Origin: Chloroflexota bacterium
Lineage (GTDB): Bacteria; Chloroflexota; UBA11872
DNA: 64,000 nucleotides
Reading direction: 5' to 3'
Assembly (NCBI GenBank): GCA_022824865.1
Contig: JAJDZD010000025.1
Coordinates: 1-64,000 of the forward strand
Position numbers and translations under genes: made by a program. Positions within the stretch are counted from its first letter, which is position 1. Each line of letters starts with the position of its first letter. The notes beneath the pieces were generated by a model, which did not search any database, had not been told where the DNA came from, and saw only the letters and a program-made list of their open reading frames with translations. Shown in pieces: positions 43,510-55,290 of this stretch.

Positions 43510-43860
43510 GATACCCCGCGCCTGTCCGGCCGGGCCAGGGCGGCGACCGGAACCCGGACGCCGTCACCTTCCCTTGGCAGGCTATGTACTCGCTCCGCAG
43601 AGCCCATTAGAATCCGGCGACGAGGCCTATGCCGTTCGGCGTCGAAACAATGAGCCTCTCAGCCAGGCATCGCGATCACTTCCTGCGTAAGGGCTACCTG
43701 GTCGCTGGGCACGTCTTCGGTCCTACTGAAGACCTCCGGTCGGTCGGCGGTGAGTACCCCGATGTCCTCGATCGCGGAGCCCGACGCCTGCACTCTGCCG
43801 GCGGATTCCGCGGTACCGGCGGCGACCTGCGGTTCGAGCAACGCGCCTATCCGCTGACCC
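43510..43860 (+). pseudogene. 5' remnant of a phyH gene plus upstream region (copy A of the module at 55 kb)
   Basis: MPFGVETMSLSARHRDHFLRKGYLVAGHVFGPTEDL...EYPDVLDRGARRLHSA...RFEQRA aligns without gaps to the 55268 ORF, about half identical, then similarity stops. Confidence 0.75.
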
Positions 43861-43909: not shown

Positions 43910-45441
43910 ATGCCGGCCGCCTACCCGGAATCGGTCGTCCTGTCGAAGGCGCCGGGCCGCAGCGTCCTCTTCGCCGACCTGCTTGAGGTGGCCGAGATGC
44001 ACAACGCGAACCTGGTCGTGACCAGTGCCACCAAACACCCGGCGAATCCCGTACTCCCGGCCGGGCTGATCGGACGCTGGGATTCGATGCAGGCGTCGCC
44101 CTGGCAGGGGACCGTTCTCTGGGATGCCGAAGATGGCCAGTTCAAGTGCTGGTACATGGGCATTGACGCCCAGGAGGCCGGCATCCAGCGACCGCGCACG
44201 GGCTATGCCACGAGCGTAGATGGCATCGCCTGGCACCGTCCGGATCTTGGCATCTGCGAGTACAAGGGCTCCCGCGCGAACAACCTGCTCGTGGACAACA
44301 CGCCGCGTCGGACGAACGGCCCCTGCCTGAAGGACGTAGCGGACCCGAATCCCGATCGTCGCTACAAGCTCTTCCTTCCCGACGAAGACGAAAACAAGGA
44401 GATCTGGAACTCGCCCGACGGCGTTCACTTCACGCGCGAGGGGAAGCCGTGTCTAACGTCCGCTCGCACCACGGACGGCGCGTATCGCTGGCTCCCCGAT
44501 CCTGAAGCGTGGTTCGACGTGCACCAGGTGTTGTACGACCCCAGGACCCCGATCCACAGCGCCGCTACAAGTGCTACGGCCAGATCTCCGCGCCCAAGTC
44601 GCCGGATCGAGGCGGCTGGACGAGCCGAAAGGGCGGCATGGCGTACGGCCCGGACCCGTGGACGTGGACCCGCTCAACCCATAACCCCATCATCGATCCG
44701 GACGATGGCGAGGAGTTTCAAATCCACTTCATCTCGGTCTTCCCGTGGAAGGGCTACTACTTCATGCTCTACGAATTCGGGTGGATCGAGCCGCTGCTGG
44801 ATTCGTACGTGGGAGACGTGCGGCTCGCCGTCAGCAGGGACGGCGAGATCTTCAGGCGTGTGAACGCCCATGAGCCAGTGATTCGTCGCGGTGCCAGGCA
44901 CGAATGGGACAGCGGGTTCATCGTGACCTCCAGCGACGTGGTCGTATACGGCTCCGAGCTTCGCCTCTACTACTCCGGTCAGGCCGAGACCTGGACGATG
45001 TGGCCGCTCGGCGACCGGGTGGCGAAAAAAGTGGGATGGCCGCAGAGCGTGGGAAGCATCTACCCCGCCCAGATGGGGCTCGCCACGCTCCCGCTCGACG
45101 GTTTCACCGGCCTGGAGTCCCGAGATCAGGAGATGCCGGCAATCGTGACGACGATTCCGATCGAGACGTCGGCTTCAGCGGTTGAGCTTTCCGCAAGCGT
45201 GAGCCGCACTCTGGCGGCCCGCAGTTGGATCGACGTCGCCGTGCTTGGTTCGAACGGCGAGGAGCTCGAAGGATTCGGGCGTGCCAATTGCCATCACCTC
45301 AGCACCGATGGCGCCGATCGGCCGGTCCGCTGGATCGACACCGGGCACCTGCCGTCGGTCGCCGAGCCCGTGCAGTTGCGCTTCTGGATCTACGGCCAGG
45401 CCCGGCTGCACGGATTCACCTGTACGGATCGTTCAGAATGA
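43910..45441 (+). pseudogene. GH32/43-like beta-propeller glycosidase-type gene, frameshifted (ORFs 43910..44863 and 44509..45441)
   Basis: KHPANPVLPAGLIGRWDSMQASPWQGTVLWDAEDGQFKCWYMGIDAQ and DPQRRYKCYGQ...HNPIIDPDDGEEFQIHFISVFPWKGYYFMLYEFG; one extra C in the run at 44539-44542 restores VLYDPQDPDPQRRYK. Confidence 0.75.
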
Positions 45442-48448: not shown

Positions 48449-49930
48449 TCATCGATCCCGCCGCCGTGGCGGACCCGGATCGGACGCCATCGCCGTGGCA
48501 TCGAAACTGCGCGCGATCAGATCCGACTTCACGTCCCGAAAGTCGGGATCGCTCCAGCGATCCACAAACTCCCAGGGATCGTCGTCCAGGTCGTAAAGCT
48601 CGCCCGTGCCGTGGTTGTGGTACACCACCAGCTTCCAGCATCGATCACGGTACATCGTGGCAAAGCTCGCGCCCGGTGGCCGTCCGCGCGCCCCGTAATA
48701 CTCCGTGCGAACATAGTCCCGATGCGCCTCGCCATCGTCATCTCCGCGCTCAATGACGCCTGCGAGCGACCGGCCCTGCATGAGCGGTGGGATCGACTGT
48801 CCGGCGAATTCCAGGAGCGTCGGGGCGACATCGGTCAACTCGACGAGCGAATCACAGCGACGCCCCGCGGGGATACGGCCCGGCCATGCCATCAGGAGCG
48901 GAACGCGCACCATGCCCTCGTAGAACCGGCAGCCTTTTTCCAGCAAACCGTGATCGCCCAGCATCTCGCCGTGATCGCTCATAAACACAACGACTGTATT
49001 GCGGAGCTGTCCGGTGGCCTCCAGGTGCTCGACGATTCGTCCGAATTCCGCATCGATGAGCTCGATCATCGCGTAGTACGCGGCCCGGACGCGCTTGGCG
49101 TCCATGTCGGACGGACGCGTGGGCACTGGCCTCCGCGCCCGCCACTCGACGTCCGCGAGACGTTCCTGGTGTTCGAGGTCGCTCTCCCGAAAGTAGGGAT
49201 CGGACAGCGAGTCGAGGTCGTAGCGTCGGTAGTACTCCCACGGCGGATCGAATGGCGGATGTGGATCATTCACGTTCACGCACAAGAGCCACGGCTCTCG
49301 CGCCTGCTCGATAAACGCGATCGCGCGCTCGCTGCACCACGTCGTCTGGTGCAGCGAGTAAGGGATGTTGTCCTGATCCGGCGTCGGCGCATATAGCCGA
49401 TTCGCCGAGGTTGGCCGGCGCGCGAATACAGCTGACGGCTCGTGCCCCTTCGCGCGAATCCAGTCGGCGTAGCCATGCACACCCGGCGCCCAATCGTCGT
49501 GCGCACCCAGGCTCCAATCGAACCACCCAAACCCATCGTTCACGCGAGGCTCGGTCGCCTGGGGATCACCGTGACCGTCAGCCAGGTGGAGCTTTCCAAC
49601 CAGCCCGCAGTCGTAGCCCGCCTCCGCCAGCAGTCGGCTGACCAGCGTGGACTCTGCAGCCGGCGGAAAGTAATCGAGCGCGTTGTAGTTGACGTGGACG
49701 GCGCTCGGATAGCGACCGGTCATGAAGCTCGCTCGACTCGGACAGCACAACGGGCTCTGACAGTACGCATGAGTAAACGCCGCTCCCCGACGAACCAGCG
49801 CGTCGAGGTGCGGCGTCCGAATCTCCGGGTTTCCCAGGGCCGCCACCGTGTCGAACCGTTGATGGTCGGTGCAGTACCAGAGGATGTTTGGCGGCCTGTG
49901 CGGTGCGGCGGTCAAGGGATCGTCTGCCAT
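48449..49930 (-). CDS. sulfatase (arylsulfatase-type, Cys subtype)
   Basis: PPNILWYCTDHQRFDTVAALGNPEIRTPHLDALVRRGAAFTHAYCQSPLCCPSRASFMTGRYP (CxPSR formylglycine motif). Confidence 0.95.
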   Translation of the reverse strand: MADDPLTAAPHRPPNILWYCTDHQRFDTVAALGNPEIRTPHLDALVRRGAAFTHAYCQSPLCCPSRASFMTGRYPSAVHVNYNALDYFPPAAESTLVSRLLAEAGYDCGLVGKLHLADGHGDPQATEPRVNDGFGWFDWSLGAHDDWAPGVHGYADWIRAKGHEPSAVFARRPTSANRLYAPTPDQDNIPYSLHQTTWCSERAIAFIEQAREPWLLCVNVNDPHPPFDPPWEYYRRYDLDSLSDPYFRESDLEHQERLADVEWRARRPVPTRPSDMDAKRVRAAYYAMIELIDAEFGRIVEHLEATGQLRNTVVVFMSDHGEMLGDHGLLEKGCRFYEGMVRVPLLMAWPGRIPAGRRCDSLVELTDVAPTLLEFAGQSIPPLMQGRSLAGVIERGDDDGEAHRDYVRTEYYGARGRPPGASFATMYRDRCWKLVVYHNHGTGELYDLDDDPWEFVDRWSDPDFRDVKSDLIARSFDATAMASDPGPPRRRDR

Positions 49931-50185: not shown

Positions 50186-51868
50186 CTAGCCAAACTCCCC
50201 GGGCTTGATCGGGTTCGGGCGCTCCTGCCACCAGTTGCGGAGCTCTTGCCACGACTCGTGGGACTGTTCCAGGGCACGATCTGCCGATCTCAGCGTCTGC
50301 TCGATGCCGTCATCAATGCTGAACTCGCCGAGCAGGATTGCCGACAGATTCTGGATGCGCGGACTTCCGCCGCGCTGCCAATCGCGCCACGCGGGATGCG
50401 CCATCTGCGCCGACCGCGCGTCCGGCTGGTCGAAGAAGTCCTTCATCATGGCGTGGTTCTCCGGCGGTCCCGCCGCGTATTCCGGCGATGCCAGGACGTC
50501 CTTCCTGATCGGCACCGATCCCCGATCGATAGCGACCCGTCCTTGGACTTCCCGGCCGGCAAAGAATAAGCAGATCTCCACACACGCTTCCAGGTTGCCG
50601 CGCGTCTCGGCAGAATTCGTCACGAGGTGCGGTTGCATGGTCATGGCGTATGGCGCGGGCCCGCGCGGGCCTTCCACCGTTGGCATTCGCGACCACCGAA
50701 ACCGGTCCTTGATCCGCGTCGCGAAGGTGCCAACCGATCCCGCCGACCTGACCATCACGCGTCCGGCGGAGAACGGATCGCCAAACTCACCGGCCAGCTC
50801 CCTCGTCTCGGAAACCTGCGGCGCCGCGCCATGGGTATGGATCAGGTCATTGACAAGGCGGATCCCGGCGTCACCCCCGCTGTCCCACATCGTCGTCCGC
50901 AAGCCGTCGGCCGATCGGTAATGCAGATTGGGATCGTCGGCAAGCGCCCACCCCCACGAGTTCCACATCCCGTACCAGCTCCCGTTCGCAAGCAGCCCCC
51001 ACTGCTGCGCTTCGGGGTCGGTCGCCTTTTGGAGTGCCTCCAGGAATTCTGTCTGGATTCCCCACCGACCCGGCGTCGGCCACTCGATTCCGGCCTGCTC
51101 CATGATGTCAAGGTTGATGATCTGGGTATTCAGATTGCCCTGGTAGGGCAGACCGAACATGGGACCCCGAAGGCCGTCCAGGTGCCCGATGGGCAGGGTG
51201 TCGGTAAACGTCAGATCGTTCGTATCCGGATAGAAGTAATAGTCGTGCGGATTGAACGTGTCGAACTTGCGAACGACGTCATCGATCTGCAGGAAGCCGC
51301 CTGACGCCTGGAAGCGCGACTTGAACCATCCGGATAAGAGCGCTAACTCGCCCGCCGTGCCGGCGACCATCTGAATACTGAAGGATTCCTCGTAGGTGTG
51401 AGGCTAAGGCACAAACTTGATATGGATGTGGGGCACCGTCTGCGCAAATCGGTCCAGGCCCCATCCCATCGCGGCGCCGCGCGGACCCGACGTGTGGTCG
51501 TGTACGAATACGACGGTTACGGGCGGACGCTGCGCCTCGACCTCGACGACTTTCTCGACGACTTTTTCTACTTCCTTGGTGACGACCTTTTCGACAACCT
51601 TCTCGACCGGGACCTCGACAACCTGCTTGACCTCAACCACCTTCTCGATTGGAACTTCCTCACGGACGACATTCACGACCTCTTGGGTCACGACTCGCTC
51701 GACCTGCTGCGTGACGATCTTCTCGACCGGCACTTCCTTCACCACAACTCTTTCGACTGGAACTTCCTTGGTAATGATCTTCGGCTCAGCCTCGCCTCAG
51801 GCCGCCAGCGCCGCGACGCCCGCCGCGCTAATGCCCAGTCCACCGGCGATGAAGCACCGCGCACCCTA
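50186..51868 (-). pseudogene. extracellular solute-binding protein copy with three in-frame stops (copy B)
   Basis: One frame throughout: TAG 51866-51868, TGA 51797-51799 (lipobox Cys position), TAG 51404-51406 (aligns to Gln). Aligns to the intact SBP 53295..54953 (DHTSGPRGAAMGWGLDRFAQTVPHIHIKFVP*). Confidence 0.85.
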
Positions 51869-51998
51869 GGGAAGCCGCCGGACAATGTCAGTCCCGTCCC
51901 TCTCCGCCCCTGCCAAGTCGACTCCCTGAACCCCGAAGCTACCCCGCGCCTGCCCGACCGGACCACAGCGGCCATCGGGACTCGGACGCCGCCGGCTT
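51850..51998. repeat. intergenic module copy B
   Basis: TGAAGCACCGC...GGAAGCCGCCGGACAATGTC...GGACCACAGCGGCCATCGGGACTCGGACGCCG matches 55061-55212. Confidence 0.85.
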
Positions 51999-52045
51999 CG
52001 CGCCCATGGCATGTCGCGTGGAGCGCTGGATCTGACCCTTGTCCG

Positions 52046-53230
52046 CTAGTGATCCGCGCCGATTCGGGCCAGTTCCTGTGGAAGCCACTCCGGATAGCGT
52101 AGGTCCATCGGCGCCGGATCCGGCTCACCCAAGCCGGCCTGCGTCCGCGCCTGCAGCAATGGATGTGCGCCCCGACGCATCGGAAATCGCACTCGGCGCT
52201 CGGTGAAATGCGATTCCCACGCCCCGAGCAGCATCTCCATCACGGCCAGGCCCTCTTCGCCGCTGTTCTCGTGCGGTCGATCTTGATCGAGCGCATGGAC
52301 CGTCTCATCGGCCATCCACAAGTCGCCTCCCGGCTCATCCAGGTAGTCCACCCCGTGCAGGATTCGGTCGGCGGGCGTAAGCGCCAGCAGTTCCCAGTTG
52401 ACGTCCTCAACCCGCCAGTCGCGCCCGCGGCGCACCTGCATGTTCATTTGGTTGTAGAGGCAGATGGCGCCGTCTTCGCCGTAGATCTTGATGTGGCCCC
52501 AGCCGCGGTTGGACTCGCTGCGCCGGTGAAACTCGGCAAATACGGTCCCGCCACCTTCAAAGTCATACACCGCCGAGATGTTCTCGCCCGCAATCCACCC
52601 AAAGCCGTACGGTCCGGCGATCACGCCTTCCGGGCCGGTGGGTTCGCCAGCGGTGGTGCAGATGGCCGAGACGCTGCGCGCCCGGCCAAGGAAAGCGCGC
52701 GTGCCATTCAGGCGGTGGGTCCCGATGTTCATGAGGTCATAACCGCCGTAGTAGCCCTTGCCCCGGAGCTTGATCGTCGTGATCGGTCCGATCTCACCGG
52801 CCTCGATCATGCGCCTGGCTACTCGAAAAGGTGGCGTACAGCGGAATTGATGGTGAACGGCCAGCAGCGTGCCGGTTCGAGCCGCCGCAGCCACCATCCG
52901 ATCGGCATCGTCGAGACTGGTGGCCATCGGCTTTTCCACATCGATCGCGCGCGGCGGTCGGTGCGCCAACACCCCCATCGTCAACGGCGCATGCAGATCG
53001 GTGCGTGTGGGAATGCTGACGATGTCGGGGTCCTCCCGGTCGAGCATCGCTCGGTAGTCACCATACGTCCGGTCCACGCCGAGTTCCTGCGAGGCGTGCG
53101 CCAGCCGTGCGGCGTCCATGTCACACAGCGCCACGAGGTCGATACGTGGATGCTGACGATAGGCGCGGCCGTGCTTGAGGCCACGCGGGCCAACACCCAG
53201 GATTGCCGCACGATACGTCGCCATTACCAC
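52046..53230 (-). CDS. Gfo/Idh/MocA family oxidoreductase
   Basis: YRAAILGVGPRGLKHGRAYRQHPRIDLVALCDMDAARL, DVEKPMATSLDDADRMV. Confidence 0.93.
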   Translation of the reverse strand: MVMATYRAAILGVGPRGLKHGRAYRQHPRIDLVALCDMDAARLAHASQELGVDRTYGDYRAMLDREDPDIVSIPTRTDLHAPLTMGVLAHRPPRAIDVEKPMATSLDDADRMVAAAARTGTLLAVHHQFRCTPPFRVARRMIEAGEIGPITTIKLRGKGYYGGYDLMNIGTHRLNGTRAFLGRARSVSAICTTAGEPTGPEGVIAGPYGFGWIAGENISAVYDFEGGGTVFAEFHRRSESNRGWGHIKIYGEDGAICLYNQMNMQVRRGRDWRVEDVNWELLALTPADRILHGVDYLDEPGGDLWMADETVHALDQDRPHENSGEEGLAVMEMLLGAWESHFTERRVRFPMRRGAHPLLQARTQAGLGEPDPAPMDLRYPEWLPQELARIGADH

Positions 53231-53294: not shown

Positions 53295-54953
53295 CTAGCG
53301 CGGCACGTCGCCCTTGTCGAGCTGCTCTTGCCAGCGGGCCAGCATGCGGTTGACCTTTTCCGCCGCATCGAGCATGGACTGAACCGGATCGGCTTCACCG
53401 ACAAGCGCTTTGTCCAGAACCGGCCGCCACTCGGCGCGCAGCTCCAGAAAATTGCCGCCCGGCACGTACCACTGGTCGTGCCGCACGTGGGGCGACGCGG
53501 GGTAGGTGAACAGATGGTGCATTCCTTCGGGCGGTGGCGCCGTGGCCGCCGCGTCGTCCGCCACGGCCTTGAAGCACGGCATGTGGCCACGGTCGATCCC
53601 CACACGGCCTTGCACTTGCGGCCCGGCGAGGAAATGGGCCCAGGCCACGGCCTGCTCTTCCACGCCGGTCGTGGTGGCGGACCGCGCCACCAGATGCGCC
53701 TGGTCGTTCAGCACGAAGTTGGCGTGATCGGTCACATTGCCCCAAACCATTGGACCCAGTGACCACCGGAACCGGTCCCGGATCCGCGGAATCGCAAACC
53801 CGGTGCTGTAGACGCGCCCGCCGATCCAGAAGACCTGATTGCCGGCCGCGAACGGACTGCCGAACTCGCCCGCCACGTCGGGCCGTTGTTCGGGAGTGAA
53901 GGACACCCCATGCTCGTAGATCAGATCGACAATCCACTTCCACCCCTGCGGGCCGTCGCCCAGCGCCGGTCCCCACACCTGGGCGCCATCGTTGCCCCGG
54001 GGGCGCTCGGCTTGGTTGTTGTAGCCAAACGCGGCCGGAAATACGTAGAACTGCTCGCTACGATCCGAGTTGATACCGTAGACCCCTGTGTCAGGGTCGG
54101 TTACGCGCTTCGCCGCTTCTAAGAGGTCGTCGTAGCGCCAGCCCTCCACCGGCTCATCCACGCCCGCCGCCGCCAGCGCGTCGATGTTGTAAAGCATCCC
54201 GCCGATCACGGTCTGGAACGGCATCCCATGCTGCGGCCCGTGCATCGTGCGATCGTACGGGTATGACTCGTCCTTGTTATCGGAGTACGAGTCCGGGATG
54301 AACCAATAATTGTCCGGATCGTGGTCGTCGCGTTTGTCCAGCAGGTCGTTGATAAGGAGCCACGATTCACCTTCGATGTGCCGCTGATACGTGCCGCCGT
54401 TGAGCAGGTTCACCTCAGACAGCGTCCCTGCGGCCGCCTCGATCGCAATCTTCTCGTAAAAAATGGTGTTCTGTGGGATGAACTTGATCTTGATGTCGGG
54501 CCGCTCAACCGCAAATCGCTCGATTCCCCACTGCATCGCCTTCCCACGGGGACCGGACGTGTGATCAGTGGCGAATTCAATCTTCACGGTTCGCTGTTCG
54601 GGCTGGGCCTCCACCATGACTTGAACTTCGCGGGTGACGACTTTTTCGACGACCGTTTCGCGTTCGACGATCTGTGTCACCACGCGTTCGACCGGCACCT
54701 CGACCTGCTGGGTCACGACCTTTTCTTGCGTCACGATCCGTTCAACTGGGACTTCCTTGACCTCGGTCCTTGTAACCACGGTCTCGACCGGGACTTCCTT
54801 CACCACAATCTTCTCGACGGGGACTTCCTTCGTAACGATCTGAGGTTCGGCCTCACCGCAGGCCGCCAGTGCCGCAATGCCCGCTGCGCTCACTCCCACC
54901 CCGCCGGCGATTCGCAGCAACTGACGCCGGGTCATTCGCGAGTCCTTGCGCAT
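53295..54953 (-). CDS. extracellular solute-binding protein; Tat-like signal plus lipobox and long VEKVV-type spacer
   Basis: MRKDSRMTRRQLLRIAGGVGVSAAGIAALAACGEAEPQIVTKEVPVEKIVVKEVPVETVV...; GGGGGAGG before ATG 54953; ORF track calls 55073 as start. Confidence 0.92.
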   Translation of the reverse strand: MRKDSRMTRRQLLRIAGGVGVSAAGIAALAACGEAEPQIVTKEVPVEKIVVKEVPVETVVTRTEVKEVPVERIVTQEKVVTQQVEVPVERVVTQIVERETVVEKVVTREVQVMVEAQPEQRTVKIEFATDHTSGPRGKAMQWGIERFAVERPDIKIKFIPQNTIFYEKIAIEAAAGTLSEVNLLNGGTYQRHIEGESWLLINDLLDKRDDHDPDNYWFIPDSYSDNKDESYPYDRTMHGPQHGMPFQTVIGGMLYNIDALAAAGVDEPVEGWRYDDLLEAAKRVTDPDTGVYGINSDRSEQFYVFPAAFGYNNQAERPRGNDGAQVWGPALGDGPQGWKWIVDLIYEHGVSFTPEQRPDVAGEFGSPFAAGNQVFWIGGRVYSTGFAIPRIRDRFRWSLGPMVWGNVTDHANFVLNDQAHLVARSATTTGVEEQAVAWAHFLAGPQVQGRVGIDRGHMPCFKAVADDAAATAPPPEGMHHLFTYPASPHVRHDQWYVPGGNFLELRAEWRPVLDKALVGEADPVQSMLDAAEKVNRMLARWQEQLDKGDVPR

Positions 54954-55060
54954 ATCGAACGCCTCCCCCTCCACGCGCCGCATCCACTCGACGCCGTAAG
55001 CCAAACTACGATGCGGGCACGAAAACTTCAACCACGAATCTCCCGGTCCCCAATCACCCC

Positions 55061-55290
55061 TGAAGCACCGCACGGCATTGGGAAGCCGCCGGACAATGTC
55101 GGTCTCTTCCGTCTCTCCCCCTGCCAGATCGACTCCGTGAACCCCGCAGCTAACCCGCGCTCGCCCGACAGGACCACAGCGGCCATCGGGACTCGGACGC
55201 CGTCGGCTTCTCTCACGAGGCTCTGTACTCGCTCGACAGAGCAGACTAGAATCCGGCGACGAGGCCTATGCCCTTCGGTGCCGAATCAAT
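55061..55290. repeat. intergenic module copy C between divergent SBP and phyH
   Basis: Shares its 5' half with 51850-51998 and its 3' half with 43510-43650. Confidence 0.85.
55224..55252 (+). promoter_or_regulatory. putative sigma70-type promoter for phyH
   Basis: TGTACT - 17 nt - TAGAAT, conserved with the same spacing at 43585-43613. Confidence 0.5.

Follow-up and report, generated by a model that had tools for sequence, protein, structure and literature searches.

A probable young pseudogene of a solute-binding lipoprotein in a recombining catabolic-cassette locus of a Chloroflexota bacterium

Introduction

Pseudogenes that arise in bacteria by disruption of a native gene, and the early stages of their decay, have been reviewed (PMC11078800). 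Low dN/dS in bacterial frames that contain in-frame stop codons has also been argued to reflect readthrough (Belinky et al. 2021, PMC7918605). Both descriptions bear on a gene that we call SBP1, found in a 64,000-nucleotide stretch (the window) of contig JAJDZD010000025.1 from a single draft genome (GCA_022824865.1; 80 contigs, ~92% complete) of a Chloroflexota bacterium that, judging from the names of its relatives, is probably sponge-associated.

SBP1 resembles early-decay pseudogenes (PMC11078800) in that it has intact orthologs and private lesions, its dN/dS is low because inactivation was recent, and other genes of the same cassette are decaying too; it differs in that its lead lesion is replacement of the 5' end by a gene module, which goes beyond point changes. 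With the readthrough cases of Belinky et al. (PMC7918605), it shares in-frame stops within a frame whose dN/dS is well below 1, but the stops of SBP1 are conserved in no ortholog and its start codon is missing. Like lipoproteins of the SBP_bac_8 family (PF13416), the orthologs of SBP1 have an arginine-rich n-region, a LAAC lipobox, an EVPVEK-rich linker and a binding domain, whereas the copy in the window lacks the start, the n-region and the lipobox Cys. We conclude that SBP1 is very probably a recently formed and quite ordinary pseudogene of a solute-binding lipoprotein, in a locus of recombining catabolic cassettes.

Results

An earlier note on this DNA, made from the sequence alone, had described an in-frame copy of ~1.7 kb interrupted by three stops. 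Translation of the minus-strand frame at 50186-51868 agrees with that description: TAG (51868-51866), TGA (51799-51797) and TAG (51406-51404) are all in frame, and the 3' part of 394 codons is open and ends at its own TAG. However, the first of these stops lies in a noncoding repeat of ~160 bp (R2), outside SBP1, and corresponds to nothing in the gene, leaving two stops inside SBP1.

50186 to 51849, minus strand: SBP1 pseudogene; linker and solute-binding domain kept, start codon and signal-peptide n-region gone (alignment with the intact orthologs L040 and L041)
51797 to 51799, minus strand: TGA at the lipobox Cys codon, TGC or TGT in orthologs (ortholog alignment)
51404 to 51406, minus strand: TAG at a Gln codon, CAG in L040, L041 and L042 (ortholog alignment)
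51850 to 52010, minus strand: repeat R2, noncoding, holding TAG 51868-51866 and lying directly upstream of the SBP1 remnant (84-87% identical to 55061-55221)

The open 394-aa part of the window copy scores 23.9 bits for Pfam SBP_bac_8, below the cut-off of 27 bits, with the orthologs of SBP1 left unscored. Three congeneric MAGs carry orthologs of this part, with identities of 97% (L040 in G011), 95% (L041 in G009) and 91% (L042 in G008); of 13 genomes in the genus, only 4 have the gene. These three orthologs, instead of the neighbouring paralog SBP2, form the proper reference set for SBP1. L040 and L041 are intact from MGTNSHMTRRRLL through to the same terminator as the window copy. Where the assembled window sequence has its two stops, both have sense codons: TGC or TGT, encoding the Cys of LAAC, at the TGA, and CAG at the TAG. 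Both stops, together with the 5' junction, are private to the window genome by comparison with L040 and L041. In L042, SBP1 is broken independently: its linker contains a TAA, and single bases have been inserted at two places.

Judged by these alignments, the main lesion of SBP1 is structural and is not the stops. SBP1 lacks its start codon, its first 8-14 codons and ~250 bp of native upstream sequence, and the frame meets R2 at ~51850. L040 and L041 share 85.6% identity over the ~250 bp that run up to and include the start. Nothing homologous to this segment is present in the window, where the frame opens at about ortholog codon 15 (codon 9 if the start is MTRRRLL). The claim that SBP1 has decayed with no indel holds for the retained ~1.66 kb, which aligns to the true orthologs with zero indels, but not for the 5' end, where the start codon, the n-region and the native upstream sequence have been replaced by the repeat. 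With start codon and lipobox lost, SBP1 would give no protein product.

Comparison with L041 points to an extra block as the probable source of this lesion. Two segments of the window, 59425-55200 and 51848-45193, are colinear with L041, and the window has an additional 3.35 kb between them. This block contains R1, SBP2, a Gfo/Idh oxidoreductase gene and R2, none of which is present here in L041.

55061 to 55221, minus strand: repeat R1, between SBP2 and a divergent PhyH gene (sequence comparison with R2)
53295 to 55073, minus strand: SBP2, an intact solute-binding lipoprotein paralog, true start probably in the MRKDSRMTRRQLL region (Pfam SBP_bac_8, 45.4 bits; 94-97% identical in five congeneric genomes)
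52046 to 53230, minus strand: Gfo/Idh/MocA oxidoreductase, intact, part of the SBP2-Gfo module (Pfam PF01408, 80.9 bits; homologs of 96-98% aa identity in eight congeneric genomes)

The SBP2-Gfo module occurs, whole or in part, in eight congeneric genomes at 92-98% DNA identity, mostly in other contexts, and in four of these genomes the sequence 3' of Gfo runs ~50-60 bp into R2. By alignment, the module and the R repeats occupy the site of the upstream region, start and n-region of SBP1 in relatives. On the simplest interpretation, recombination brought the module to the front of the SBP1 cassette, where it took the place of SBP1's own promoter and start. A single such event may also have taken the 5' end and left the gene untranslatable, and nonsense changes would then have accumulated at no cost; the order of these events is likewise the one that we consider most plausible.

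The match to R2 upstream of the intact SBP2 extends over 55061-55210 (87%), and partial R copies are found at contig positions 64744-64827 and 43512-43571. The KAS III gene lies beside the third R copy, at 64.8 kb of the contig, in the window genome and beside SBP1 in L040, and R-type repeats may therefore be recurrent recombination points. A short sequence, GAAGCCGRCGGCGTCCGAG, is located at window positions 55192-55210, 51981-51999 and 43553-43571, which are the edges of R1, R2 and the third site. Gene orders of relatives diverge at GAAGCCGRCGGCGTCCGAG sites, and several arrangements split beside the short GAAGCCGRCGG; it is possible that these sites are a recombination hot spot.

The intact neighbour SBP2 had been proposed as the copy to which SBP1 aligns without gaps around each stop. 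The binding domains of the two proteins share only 34% aa identity and the full-length DNA alignment has several gaps, so by this comparison SBP2 is an old paralog of SBP1 and not its parent; at 34% aa identity it is also unsuitable as a reference for dN/dS. Only at the 5' end are the two highly similar: the signal peptide and linker match at 81% over 130 bp, and the noncoding sequence upstream of them at 84-87% over ~160 bp. A 5' module of ~400 bp, comprising the upstream region, signal peptide and EVPVEK linker, is common to SBP2, SBP3 and SBP4 at 76-90% DNA identity (window 54745-55164, L093 4429-4848 and L094 2104-2510), despite no or weak mutual similarity of their binding domains, which suggests that SBP genes exchange 5' modules. 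Published work on this locus, or on exchange of SBP 5' modules in sponge Chloroflexota, gave general context only. SBP2 is itself broken in three relatives: G005 and G004 have lost ~0.9 kb from within the gene, and G002 has a 5' truncation plus frameshift (L136 9176-11439, L138 8412-10243 and L140 9002-10093). The window genome has 29 matches to SBP1 at 30-46% identity, representing SBP paralogs or pieces of them. With ~30 such genes and fragments available, loss of one SBP is unlikely to be costly.

We computed dN/dS for SBP1 against the orthologs. The values for the window copy, 0.095 with L040 and 0.103 with L041, are far from 1 and match that of the intact pair L040-L041 (0.118), which indicates that inactivation of SBP1 was recent. 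Parsimony counts assign 42 synonymous changes, 12 nonsynonymous changes and one scorable nonsense change to the window branch (dN/dS 0.11), although L042 agrees with the window at three of the 12 nonsynonymous positions, so that these changes probably belong to L040/L041. Relaxed selection, with dN/dS moving towards 1, is thus not seen in SBP1, a result that bounds its age and not its class. The young pseudogene suggested in the earlier note is borne out by the intact orthologs, the private stops and this unrelaxed branch.

Depending on the functional dN/dS assumed, at most about 7.5-18.5% of the window branch can have been neutral. Over that share 0.44-1.1 nonsense changes are expected, with a probability of 0.07-0.30 for two or more. 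Hence, two nonsense changes, zero retained indels and few missense changes are slightly above expectation for so short a neutral period, and a striking excess of nonsense changes can be rejected at these probabilities. The expected counts are compatible with a young pseudogene, which therefore suffices as an explanation; the frame looks kept because little neutral time has elapsed.

SBP1 heads a catabolic cassette that continues with genes for a sulfatase, an amidohydrolase, a C-N hydrolase, PhyH and a 510-aa protein.

48449 to 49930, minus strand: sulfatase, the next cassette gene after SBP1, intact (Pfam PF00884, 158.9 bits; full length in G009 and G008)
43910 to 45441, plus strand: second broken cassette gene, its frame shifted by one base near 44540 (the intact G009 version encodes 510 aa)

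The 510-aa protein has no Pfam match. In G008 its gene carries two nonsense codons without a frameshift, and the cassette amidohydrolase of the same genome carries one stop. Decay of the cassette in two lineages, including decay by nonsense changes only, makes the finding in SBP1 ordinary. The view that nonsense-only decay is unusual is not supported, given the G008 gene, and SBP1 has a structural 5' lesion in addition to its stops.

Discussion

SBP1 might still have a use as a silent reserve in a domain-swapping system, its promoterless domain being re-expressed through recombination with a 5' module, but we consider this improbable. The related proposal that SBP1 is a source for gene conversion found no positive evidence: we detected no near-identical recipient with converted tracts, the nearest paralog in the genome being 46% identical at the aa level and SBP2 34%.

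It is very unlikely that the 394-codon 3' part functions as a shorter gene that starts at an internal ATG at 51370. This part is open and its dN/dS is low, but its product would have no signal peptide and would lack the beginning of the domain, and by eye we saw no close Shine-Dalgarno-like sequence. Nonsynonymous/synonymous substitutions number 9/13 in the 5' part and 17/49 in the 3' part, against 12/17 and 12/56 between the intact orthologs. Since the 5'/3' contrast equals that between intact orthologs, SBP1 shows no shift of constraint towards its 3' part, and we rejected a selected ORF with an internal start.

Equally hard to sustain is an artefact of assembly or binning, in which a mixture of strains, or an assembly error at the R repeats, would have generated both junction and stops. 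The genome is a draft, and R1 and R2, which are 87% identical, flank the extra block. Nonetheless, R2 differs from R1, the 3' flank of SBP2-Gfo runs on into R2, a continuation also seen in four other genomes, and a further cassette gene is also broken. Moreover, to our knowledge, base substitutions that create stops are not a usual assembly error.

Least probable of all, and extremely so, is that the full protein is still made, for example with UGA read as selenocysteine at the lipobox and UAG suppressed. The low dN/dS of SBP1 fits such recoding, in-frame stops with low dN/dS have been so interpreted in bacteria (PMC7918605), and the genome encodes tRNA-Sec and SelB (above cut-off), making UGA recoding possible in principle. 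The tRNA-Sec gene (L091 2045-2141; G000:C59:133547-133640) lies about 0.3 kb from another SBP paralog, in divergent orientation, and SelB is located on contig C36. Against recoding, there is no in-frame ATG, GTG or TTG between TAG 51866 and TGA 51797, the n-region is lost, and the orthologs have TGC/TGT and CAG in place of the stops. Folding of the sequence after the TGA was weaker than that of shuffles (z +1.03), so no SECIS-like fold was found there despite the machinery, and we rejected the TGA as a selenocysteine codon given that it also lacks conservation and a start. In this ~92% complete genome, ARAGORN assigned neither a CTA nor a TTA anticodon to any of 47 tRNA-family hits (candidates were collected via Rfam hits, the weakest of which, C22, was not called a tRNA). 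With amber and ochre suppressor tRNAs not found, and single TAGs in three paralogs being their terminators, suppression of TAG or a non-standard code was rejected as well. The readthrough or suppression raised in the earlier note thus finds no support, and the low dN/dS of SBP1 is better explained by recency.

As a young pseudogene, SBP1 provides a clean caution: the 5' end and the true orthologs should be checked before stops and low dN/dS are read as readthrough. Of modest interest is the surrounding locus, whose recombining catabolic cassettes and SBP 5' modules bear on the variation of uptake genes in these Chloroflexota.
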